Assembly: GCA_030645235.1 (NCBI GenBank)
Contig: JAUSMV010000030.1
Location: 1,546,988-1,610,987 of the forward strand
DNA from: Parvibaculum sp.
GTDB taxonomy: Bacteria; Pseudomonadota; Alphaproteobacteria; Parvibaculales; Parvibaculaceae
DNA length: 64,000 nucleotides
Direction: 5' to 3'
A model generated the notes under the pieces. The model was not told where the DNA came from. It saw nothing but the letters and a program-made list of their open reading frames with translations, and ran no database searches. How positions within the stretch are numbered: the stretch's first letter is position 1; each line of letters starts with the position of its first letter. The position numbers were made by a program, and so were the translations under genes. This document shows, one piece after another, positions 10,380 through 45,410 of the stretch.

Positions 10380-10802
10380 TTAGCTGTTGAGACTGTCGAG
10401 CGCCTTTTGGAAACGACCGGCATGGCTCTTTTCGGCTTTAGCCAGCGTCTCGAACCATTCGGCGATTTCGTCAAAGCCTTCTTCGCGCGCGGTGCGCGCC
10501 ATGCCGGGATACATGTCGGTATATTCATGCGTCTCGCCGGCGATCGCGGCTTTGAGATTGAGATCCGTGGGTCCGATGGGTTCGCCCGTGGCCGGGTCGC
10601 CCACTTCTTCCATGAATTCAAGATGGCCATGCGCATGGCCGGTTTCGCCTTCAGCGGTCGAGCGGAAGACGGCGGCGACGTCATTGTAGCCTTCGACGTC
10701 GGCCTTCTGCGCGAAATAGAGATAGCGGCGGTTTGCCTGGCTCTCACCGGCAAAGGCAGCTTTGAGATTTTCAACGGTCTTTGATTTGGCAAGCGATGAC
10801 AT
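10380..10802 (-). CDS. Rubrerythrin (ferritin-like domain only)
   Basis: 140 residues from the ATG at 10802, preceded by GAGGAG. The four-helix di-iron pattern is clear, with Glu/His ligands in [12 protein letters not shown] (about 20), [11 protein letters not shown] (about 52), [13 protein letters not shown] (about 82) and [10 protein letters not shown] (about 120). The C-terminal rubredoxin domain of classical rubrerythrins is absent. Members reduce hydrogen peroxide in the cytoplasm. An ICE-box promoter lies upstream, so iron control through Irr is likely. Confidence 0.93.
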
Positions 10803-10895
10803 GATTGGCTCCTCACCCGTTAGCACCGGTCAGGACTATCAGGAAGCCCTCACGCGATATGTTTCATCCTCCGTCCGGAGCGGACGGTTAACGAA

Positions 10896-10944
10896 ATCAT
10901 AGAAGTATCCCATGCGCTTGGTCAACACATTAGAATTCTTCTAA
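10896..10944 (-). promoter_or_regulatory. Rubrerythrin promoter with a perfect Irr box (ICE)
   Basis: On the minus strand: a perfect inverted repeat TTAGAA-N3-TTCTAA (10930-10944), 4 nt, then TTGACC (10925-10920), an 18-nt spacer and TATGAT (10901-10896). The repeat matches the known Irr iron-control element (TTTAGAA-N3-TTCTAAA). The start would be near 10889, placing a CCGTCC-N5-GGACGG hairpin (10871-10887) at the extreme 5' end of the mRNA. Confidence 0.85.
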
Positions 10945-10982
10945 CTAAGAGTGAATAGCAACTGGCCCAAGGCCGGACAGGC

Positions 10983-11426
10983 TTAGCTGCGCGGATCGCC
11001 CGCAAGGCGCACGATCACATCGACACGGGCAAGGCTCGTGCCTTCCGGTGCTGCCGGCAGGCCCATAACGGCGATCTGGTCGCCGTTGATATCCATCAAC
11101 CGGCCTGAATTTTCGACGAAGAAGTGATGATGATCCGAAATATTGGTGTCGAAATAGGTGCGCGAGCTGTCCACCACGACTTCGCGCAGCAAATGCGCGT
11201 CGGTGAACTGGTGCAGCGTGTTGTAAACGGTGGCAAGTGAAACGCTGACGCCCGCTTTCTGGGCTTCCTCGTGCAGGGCTTCCGCCGTCACATGGCGGTC
11301 GCCGCCGTCAAACAGCAGACGGCCAAGCGCAAGCCGCTGGCGCGTCGGGCGCAGCCCGGCGTCACGCAGTCTCGTCAATGTCTGGGCAAAAGGCCGCTCT
11401 TCTTGCGACAACTTGGCTTCGGTCAA
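10983..11426 (-). CDS. irr: Iron response regulator Irr (Fur family)
   Basis: 147 residues. A Fur-type winged helix spans about 15-85 (RDAGLRPTRQRLALGRLLF, SLATVYNTLHQF). The motif FDTNISDHHHFFVE at about 107 holds the three consecutive His typical of Irr, where haem binding is linked to its control. Irr binds ICE boxes under iron limitation in alphaproteobacteria, coordinating haem synthesis and iron storage. It is divergent from fabA, a conserved arrangement. The promoter probably uses TTGACA at 11490-11485 on the minus strand; I see no ICE box there. Confidence 0.95.
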   Translation of the reverse strand: MTEAKLSQEERPFAQTLTRLRDAGLRPTRQRLALGRLLFDGGDRHVTAEALHEEAQKAGVSVSLATVYNTLHQFTDAHLLREVVVDSSRTYFDTNISDHHHFFVENSGRLMDINGDQIAVMGLPAAPEGTSLARVDVIVRLAGDPRS

Positions 11427-42488: not shown

Positions 42489-43502
42489 TCAAATGAAGCC
42501 GACGATCTCGCGTACGCGCTTGTTCACAGGGCCGGCAATCGCTTGTGCACGCTCAGCACCGTTAGCAAGAACTGTATCAATATAGCCTTGATCGCTCTCC
42601 ATCATCCGTTTCATTTCGGATGTAATGGGCGAAAGTTTCGCAACCGCCAGTTCAGCCAACGCCGGTTTAAAAACACCAAACTGCTTGCCGCCAAATTCTT
42701 TAAGCACATCCGCCTGCGTGAGACCTGACAAGGCCGCATAGATGCTGACGAGATTACTCGCGCCCGCGCGCCCTTCAAGACCACCAACCGTTTCAGGCAG
42801 AGGGTCAGGGTCGGTCTGGGCTTTACGGATTTTCAAGGCAATCGCGTCGGCGTCGTCTCTGAGCGTAATGCGTGAATAATCCGACGGATCGGATTTCGAC
42901 ATTTTCTTGGTGCCGTCGCGCAAGGACATGACGCGCGTGGCCGGACCCATTATGAGGGGTTCGGGCTGTGGGAAAAAATCCGGCACGTTGAAATCATTAT
43001 TGAACTTTTGCGCAACGTCGCGGGCAAGCTCCAGATGTTGTTTCTGGTCCTCGCCGACCGGCACATGCGTTGCGCGATACGCCAAAATGTCAGCCGCCAT
43101 CAACACCGGATAGGCATAGAGCCCCACTGAGGCCTGCTCGCGGTCTTTGCCGGCCTTATCTTTGAATTGGGTCATGCGATTCAACCAGCCGATGCGCGCG
43201 ACGCAATTTAAAATCCAGGCAAGCTCAGCATGGGCTGACACTTTCGACTGGTTGAAAATGATGTGCTTGTCGGGGTCGATGCCCGCTGCGATATAGGCGG
43301 CGGCGACTTCGCGCGTATTGGCGGCAAGTTCTTTTGGGTCTTGCCAGACCGTGATCGCGTGGAGATCGACGACGCAATAGATGCATTCATGCGTCTCCTG
43401 CAGCCCGACGAAATTGCGGATCGCGCCAAGATAATTGCCAAGATGCAGGTTGCCCGTGGGCTGCACACCGGAGAAAACGCGATTTTTGGGCTTTTCCATC
43501 AA
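42489..43502 (-). CDS. trpS: Tryptophanyl-tRNA synthetase
   Basis: 337 residues. The class I HIGH motif is [13 protein letters not shown] (about 16), and KMSKS is in [14 protein letters not shown] (about 199). It charges tRNA-Trp. It follows murJ in the conserved glnD-murJ-trpS order, but with a 366-nt gap here that holds the candidate small RNA. Confidence 0.97.
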
Positions 43503-43649
43503 ACTCTGTCCGTCGTTTCGGCCACATACCCGCTCAATGGCTGCGCGCGGCCTTGTAGATATTGCGCCTGAGTATCCGCAGGTCTGGGGTTTATGCGGCC
43601 AAGACCCCGCAATGGCAATGGTTTCGCGTTGATGGCCCTCTATTTCATA

Positions 43650-43710
43650 TTAGAATTGTTCAAATCTATTGACAGAGACCGGTCCGCCCACCAGATTAGA
43701 ATAGTTCTTA
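43650..43710 (+). promoter_or_regulatory. Promoter with two ICE-like Irr boxes
   Basis: Box 1 TTAGAA-N3-TTCAAA (43650-43664), then 4 nt, then TTGACA (43669-43674). The -10 is weak (CAGATT at 43692 or AGATTA at 43693). Box 2 TTAGAA-N3-TTCTTA (43696-43710) would sit over the transcription start. Each box differs from TTAGAA-N3-TTCTAA at one position. The 4-nt gap between box and TTGAC equals that at the rubrerythrin promoter. Confidence 0.65.
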
Positions 43711-43865
43711 CTTGAGAGATGCCCCATGGGCAGACGTGGCGAGGCGACTTGGGTTGAAGTGACATCTAAGTGAGGCAACACCTATGAGCGATGCGTGATT
43801 CTCCTTCCGCAAGCTCATAAAGACGAGCGGCCCTGGCGGCGGAACTGCCGGGGCCGTTTTATTTT
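43704..43865 (+). ncRNA. Candidate Irr-regulated small RNA (possibly dual-function)
   Basis: Inferred transcript of about 160 nt between an ICE-box promoter and a strong terminator. It contains a 15-codon ORF (43726-43773, MGRRGEATWVEVTSK) with GAGAG about 7 nt upstream, a 4-codon ORF (43784-43798), and a CU-rich stretch TTCTCCTTCC (43799-43808) that could pair with ribosome sites. I do not recognise an RNA family. It could instead be the mRNA of a very small protein. Confidence 0.5.
43829..43865 (+). terminator. Intrinsic terminator of the candidate small RNA
   Basis: The stem CGGCCCTGGC / GCCGGGGCCG (with one G-U pair) is followed by TTTTATTTT on the plus strand. On the minus strand the hairpin lacks a T-tract, so it does not primarily serve murJ. 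Confidence 0.8.
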
Positions 43866-43868
43866 GTC

Positions 43869-45410
43869 TCAGCTCCGCCGCACCGCACTGCGCAAATCAG
43901 AGAGCCGCGCGGCACCTGTAAACTGACAGAAACCCGCATAGACAATGAGGCCGCCTGCGATGAGGCCCGCGAGCACCGAGACGCTTGCGATGAAATGCAG
44001 GTTGAAAGCGGGCTCCAGATACATTGAACCCACCCACAGAGCAGCGCCCATACCGGCAGACGATAGAAGCGTCAGCGGCAAGCGTTGCTTGAGTTGTGCG
44101 TCAGGCGCGAAGTGACCCTGACGCCAGAGGCGAAAACCAAGCTGCACTGTGTTCGTCCATGCCGCAATCGTCGTGCCCCAAGCGATGCCGGGAAAGCCGA
44201 TGAACTGGAAGAGAACGAAACTCGTTACAACATTGACGGCCACACTGAAACCCGCAAATTTCAAAGGTGTCCATGTGTTTTCGCGGGCGAAGAAAGCAGG
44301 CGAAAAAACCTTGTTGAGCACGAAGGCCGGAAGGCCGATGGCATAGATGCCGAGCGCAATCGCGGTTGCGTGTGTATCAGCACTTAAGAAACGCCCGCGC
44401 TCGAACAGCACTTTGATTATGTCATAAGGAATAACGGCAAGGGCGACAGCCGCAGGCACAGTCAGCAACATCGAAAATTCAAGCGCACGGTTGAGACTTC
44501 TGTGTGCGCCCGCATCATCCTTCGCCCGCAAGCGGCGCGACAGATCAGGCAGCAGCACCACACCGATGGCTATACCGACGACGCCAAGCGGTAATTGATA
44601 AATCCGGTCGGCATAATAAAGCCACGAGACCGCACCCGCCTGCAGTGTCGCGATCATAGTGCCGACGGTGAGGTTCACCTGACCGATGCCGCCTGCAATG
44701 ATACCGGGGATGCCGAGCTTGACGAGACGCTTCACGTCGGGCGTCAGGCGGGGACGACGCAGATGAAGCACCATACCCGCGCGATGGCAGGCATAGGTCA
44801 GCCAGATAAACTGAATGACACCGGCGCTCGCCACACCCCATGAAAGCGCGAAACCCGGATTTTCGCTTAAGGGTACAAAGACAAAAAGCGCAACGATCAT
44901 CGTTACATTGAGAATGACGGGTGCTGCCGCACCGGCAAAAAACTTGCCGAGTGAATTCAGGATCGCCGCCTGCAAGGCCGTCAGCGAAATGAAAAGCAAA
45001 TAGGGGAACGTGATGCGACTGAACTCAACCGCCCACACATGCTTTTGCGGATCGTCGCCAAAGCCCGGCGCAAAGACATGAATGAGCGCGGGCATGAACA
45101 CCATCGCAAGAATGGTGAGAACAAGCAGCGCAAACAAAAGCGCTGATGTGGCTTCTTCCGCAAAGCGTTTGGCAGAAGCCTCGCCCTCGCCTTCGAGACG
45201 CTTGGCAAAAAGCGGCACGAAGGCAGAGTTGAACGCGCCTTCGGCAAAGATCGAACGAAACATATTGGGAAAACGGAAGGCGACAAAAAAAGCGTCCGCA
45301 ATCGGACCCGACCCGATGGCGGAGGCCACCATCATGTCGCGCACAAAACCCAGGATGCGGCTCAAGAATGTTGTGCCGCCGACGGTCGCGGCGGAGCGAA
45401 GAAGGTTCAT
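43869..45410 (-). CDS. murJ: Lipid II flippase MurJ
   Basis: 513 residues with about 14 membrane spans of the MOP fold. The N-terminus MNLLRSAATVGGTTFLSRILGFVRDMMVA and the conserved ASAIGSGPIADAFFVAFRFPNMFR are diagnostic. It flips lipid II across the inner membrane for peptidoglycan synthesis. The start overlaps the glnD stop in ATGA. Confidence 0.97.
   Translation of the reverse strand: MNLLRSAATVGGTTFLSRILGFVRDMMVASAIGSGPIADAFFVAFRFPNMFRSIFAEGAFNSAFVPLFAKRLEGEGEASAKRFAEEATSALLFALLVLTILAMVFMPALIHVFAPGFGDDPQKHVWAVEFSRITFPYLLFISLTALQAAILNSLGKFFAGAAAPVILNVTMIVALFVFVPLSENPGFALSWGVASAGVIQFIWLTYACHRAGMVLHLRRPRLTPDVKRLVKLGIPGIIAGGIGQVNLTVGTMIATLQAGAVSWLYYADRIYQLPLGVVGIAIGVVLLPDLSRRLRAKDDAGAHRSLNRALEFSMLLTVPAAVALAVIPYDIIKVLFERGRFLSADTHATAIALGIYAIGLPAFVLNKVFSPAFFARENTWTPLKFAGFSVAVNVVTSFVLFQFIGFPGIAWGTTIAAWTNTVQLGFRLWRQGHFAPDAQLKQRLPLTLLSSAGMGAALWVGSMYLEPAFNLHFIASVSVLAGLIAGGLIVYAGFCQFTGAARLSDLRSAVRRS

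Follow-up and report, generated by a model that had tools for sequence, protein, structure and literature searches.

Irr-regulated genes that carry ICE boxes in alphaproteobacteria include rubrerythrin/mbfA, ccpA and bfr. In gammaproteobacteria, the iron small RNA RyhB is controlled by a different regulator, Fur. Under iron depletion, Irr represses its targets in all species that had been studied by the time of a published study, in which a start site inside an Irr box was described as consistent with repression (PMC3413700). In Rhodobacter sphaeroides, the level of katE is up in an irr mutant, yet neither an Irr box nor Irr binding was found at katE (PMC3413700). Small RNAs that originate from mRNA 3' ends have also been reviewed (PMC9438474).

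We analysed a 64-kb stretch of DNA (hereafter the window), in which the region between trpS and murJ had been put forward, in an earlier note, as an Irr-controlled small RNA gene. Comparison with relatives indicates instead that this intergenic stretch is very probably (at roughly 93%, in our estimate) what remains of an Irr-controlled katA transcription unit after an internal deletion of ~1.4 kb. It shares with rubrerythrin/mbfA, ccpA and bfr the same type of operator over the promoter, with irr in the same genome and window, but differs from them in lacking a regulated coding sequence and in having two boxes, not one, that flank the -35 and -10. Like RyhB, it combines a promoter under an iron regulator with a brief non-coding sequence and a terminator; it differs from RyhB in its predicted iron logic, which is the opposite, in its regulator, and in that the unit appears to be a gene remnant. 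The catalase katE of R. sphaeroides has no box (PMC3413700), whereas the katA catalase of this family has two. Small RNAs from mRNA 3' ends (PMC9438474) offer a further, possible likeness, in a predicted 3' UTR hairpin with a pairing-type loop and a terminator.

Anatomy of the trpS-murJ intergenic stretch

The features are as follows, in window positions.

10380-10826, minus strand: rubrerythrin, which adjoins irr; the window's best ICE box (10929-10945) lies between the two genes
42489-43502, minus strand: trpS, flanking gene on the other side of the stretch from murJ
43589-43617, minus strand: probable trpS promoter, TTGCCA ... CATAAA; the element GGTTTATGCGGC...GGCAATGG ahead of trpS is conserved
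43649-43665, no strand: ICE (Irr) box 1, directly upstream of the -35; ATTAGAATTGTTCAAAT, 11/14 ICE positions
43669-43674, plus strand: -35 TTGACA of the putative former katA promoter; aligns with TTGACN in 5/5 katA relatives
43692-43697, plus strand: weak -10 CAGATT, with a 17-nt spacer from the -35
43695-43711, no strand: ICE (Irr) box 2, overlapping the -10 and the predicted start; ATTAGAATAGTTCTTAC, 11/14 ICE positions
43704-43725, plus strand: putative katA 5' leader remnant; alignable to the relatives' leader and ribosome site as far as the ATG of katA
43726-43729, plus strand: putative deletion junction, ATGG; matches the katA start and also TATGGC codons near the katA end
43730-43762, plus strand: last katA codons, ADVARRLGLK and stop TGA; relatives end GAGVAxRLGLK
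43783-43819, plus strand: hairpin of the katA 3' UTR whose loop, UGAUUCUCCUUC, is an anti-Shine-Dalgarno sequence; fold seen in the window and in 4/5 katA relatives
43800-43806, plus strand: CU-rich stretch TCTCCTT
43825-43866, plus strand: katA terminator, a GC-rich stem and then TTTTATTTT; hairpin found by sequence scan, with a match in G003
43869-45410, minus strand: murJ, flanking gene

The layout described in the earlier note was confirmed. Two ICE boxes do flank TTGACA, the second lies over the predicted start (which, deduced from the -10, would be near 43704), and the GC-rich terminator hairpin said to follow about 160 nt downstream was found by a sequence scan of the window, as a terminator-like hairpin at 43825-43859. 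The likeness in box placement to the rubrerythrin promoter also held: TTGACA begins 3 nt past the 17-mer of box 1, and the rubrerythrin promoter has the identical geometry (TTGACC, minus strand), its box-to-TTGACC spacing being that of the katA promoter. A generic sigma-70 scan did not call a promoter at this stretch.

Within the window, boxes 1 and 2 rank second and third among ICE sites, behind the rubrerythrin box at 10929. Sites of equal ICE quality are expected about 0.8 times per window, and among 300 simulated windows none held two such boxes within 60 nt of each other. In the whole genome, TTAGAANNNTTCTAA with at most one mismatch occurs at five sites, both boxes of the stretch included; a backward control pattern occurs at 14 sites, more than the ICE pattern, so that the count alone proves nothing and only position counts. 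The five best ICE sites of the genome lie upstream of rubrerythrin, of katG and of a 377-aa frame, with the remaining two at the stretch. The irr gene is itself in the window (10983-11426, minus strand), and matches the IrrA model NF045678 with an E-value of 3e-66 and 222 bits, against a cut-off of 150.

The perfect ICE core found ~50 nt upstream of the 377-aa frame (L173 1500-1516, G000:C55:204839) lies ahead of what is presumably NAD(P) transhydrogenase alpha (pntA), which, if real, would be an unexpected Irr target.

Two other readings of the stretch were rejected. Control of trpS by the ICE boxes is disfavoured, since trpS has its own probable, conserved promoter closer to the gene (the element GGTTTATGCGGC...GGCAATGG is kept in most genus members, with katA present or absent) and the boxes track katA. 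A small open reading frame from the ATG at 43726 does not match the katA frame and has no relatives.

katA at the same locus in relatives, and its replacement by katG

Taken over its full length, the intergenic DNA is not conserved. When 61 genomes were searched, the one notable same-genus match was to the terminator part, in G003 (79% identity, E 6e-7), where it is located directly after katA. The G003 frame upstream of the matching terminator encodes a 492-aa catalase and starts just past the second ICE box. A further terminator match, in G011, falls inside a 196-aa coding frame, which we take to be 5-formyltetrahydrofolate cyclo-ligase, and was set aside as chance.

We identified katA, with a product of ~485 aa, in five same-genus genomes. 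The order trpS(-)-katA(+)-murJ(-) is found in four of them (G004, G006, G015 and G020), while G003 has trpS, katA and then a different gene. Upstream of katA, all five carry a pair of ICE boxes, spaced by 46-48 nt, around TTGACN and a -10, which reads TAAATT, TAACTT, TAAGTT or TAGTTT in these relatives versus CAGATT in the window. Four further genera of the family share this two-box plan ahead of katA (G027, G029, G030, G033, G034 and G036). Conservation between trpS and murJ, to which the earlier note had looked for a small RNA, is present for the boxes (five genomes) and for the terminator (G003), but as parts of katA. What resembles a small RNA gene in its promoter and terminator can turn out to be the scar of a deletion, a question that is settled by comparing gene order among relatives.

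Several genus members have an autotransporter-like gene with trpS or katA on one side and murJ on the other (L002 1600-3054, and katA-less relatives), indicating that this locus gains and loses genes often.

Aligned to the start and end of katA, the window contains the leader up to the ATG and directly thereafter the final katA codons, the junction reading P-W-A-D-V-A-R-R-L-G-L-K-stop versus Y-G-A-G-V-A-x-R-L-G-L-K in relatives. In a six-frame translation of the 64-kb window, the pattern VA.RLGLK* has a single match, at 43736-43762. Retained are the two-box Irr promoter, the greater part of the leader, the last 10-11 katA codons, the 3' UTR hairpin and the terminator. The ATGG microhomology at the junction could have allowed the deletion. 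In a trpS tree and in a trpS+murJ tree, this genome groups with the katA carriers with 90-91% bootstrap support, indicating that the loss of katA is particular to this genome. The boxes, katA codons and terminator show little decay, as would be expected after a recent deletion, or under selection on the remaining parts.

A profile search of this genome found no monofunctional (PF00199) catalase, and katG is present. Among 27 genomes of the genus, five have katA and the other 22 katG, with no overlap; the chance of such a split would be ~1 in 80,000 for independent genomes, which genomes of one genus are not. In this genome, katG is arranged like katA, with a pair of ICE boxes around TTGACG at a distance of 42 nt (L175 1500-1558, G000:C55:2857-2915), and an ICE box matching at least 11/14 positions was found at 19/20 katG loci checked in the genus, most loci having one box. 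The catalase of this genus, katA or katG alike, thus usually carries Irr boxes, and each replaces the other completely. We propose that the task of removing peroxide would have passed to katG, under the regulator shared with katA, leaving the old katA unit as a relic.

Possible fate of the remnant transcript

Given the published repression by Irr at low iron (PMC3413700), the promoter of the stretch would be silent when iron is low and active when it is high, contrary to RyhB. At low iron, Irr would cover the -35 and the -10/start region and block transcription; at high iron, with Irr lost, a non-coding RNA of ~160 nt would run from ~43704 to the terminator. An Irr-controlled non-coding RNA of this length could therefore still be made from the remnant, as predicted from the layout of promoter and terminator. 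Its likeliest function is none.

The best-surviving alternative to a functionless transcript, although we consider it unlikely, is that the remnant acts as a small RNA made at high iron, the deletion having put a regulatory hairpin of the katA 3' UTR behind the Irr promoter. The earlier note had pointed to a CU-rich stretch able to pair with ribosome sites, and this part holds in a modified form: the stretch forms the loop of a hairpin, with an anti-Shine-Dalgarno sequence, that derives from the katA 3' UTR and is conserved in it. The UCUCCUU loop, complementary to the Shine-Dalgarno sequence, is kept in the window and in G003, G004, G006 and G015, but the katA 3' UTR of G020 lacks it, and short inner pairs take up some of the heptamer in G004, G006 and G015. 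It is better kept than neutral sequence would be, katA fourfold-degenerate sites being only 62-78% identical.

The stem varies among the five sequences, and several of its inner positions have changed on both sides, yet the inner six positions give standard pairs in 30/30 cases (counted by hand in the window and four katA relatives). When 3' arms were re-paired among sequences, however, the mean was 22/30 pairs and some combinations also reached 30, and the comparison rests on few sequences (n=5). The -10 of the remnant is also weaker than those of the katA carriers, and zero Rfam families match the predicted RNA at the gathering cut-off. Alphaproteobacterial small RNAs in Rfam were considered and rejected, the best relaxed scores (ar7 and ctRNA) being far below cut-off.

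Additional support for a working RNA comes from two katA-less genomes, G016 and G007 (L010, L019), in which one ICE box upstream of trpS is followed by a hairpin with a GUCUCC loop and by a second hairpin. Both hairpins are well conserved between the two genomes, and the unit is possibly a stand-alone Irr-controlled RNA, judging from its arrangement. The hairpin pair was also considered as a dispersed repeat, which we rejected, as searches of six genomes found no other full copies. A broader proposal, which we hold to be still more doubtful than a working RNA in the window, is that loss of the katA coding sequence freed the 3' UTR hairpin to become a stand-alone, high-iron, Irr-controlled RNA with an anti-Shine-Dalgarno loop, and that the same happened separately in the G016/G007 lineage. 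If true, this would be the birth of a small RNA through deletion of its host gene, with sister species still showing the ancestral state. Should the RNA of the remnant prove functional, it would provide a datable case of a small RNA arising by loss of the gene in front of it.

Weaker alternatives and an observation upstream of trpS

The deletion could also be an assembly artefact in an organism with an intact katA, which we regard as very improbable. The junction is known from one genome and one assembly, of 86 contigs and with 3.3% contamination. Against an artefact, a katA fragment was found nowhere in the assembly, katG sits on a contig of 863 kb, and each of the 27 genus genomes has either katA or katG, never both.

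Least credible of all is the original proposal of a dedicated Irr-controlled small RNA gene, a RyhB counterpart acting at low iron: the Irr-type promoter, the terminator and a plausible transcript stand, but their anatomy belongs to katA, relatives of the same clade have katA at the locus and lack an independent non-coding gene, and the RyhB analogy would run in the wrong direction, as repression by Irr occurs at low iron (PMC3413700) and the promoter is covered by box 2.

In katA-less genomes (L012, L013, L015, L017, L018 and L020), we additionally observed three spaced, Pho box-like CTGTCA repeats upstream of trpS, which adjoin a decayed ICE-like site.
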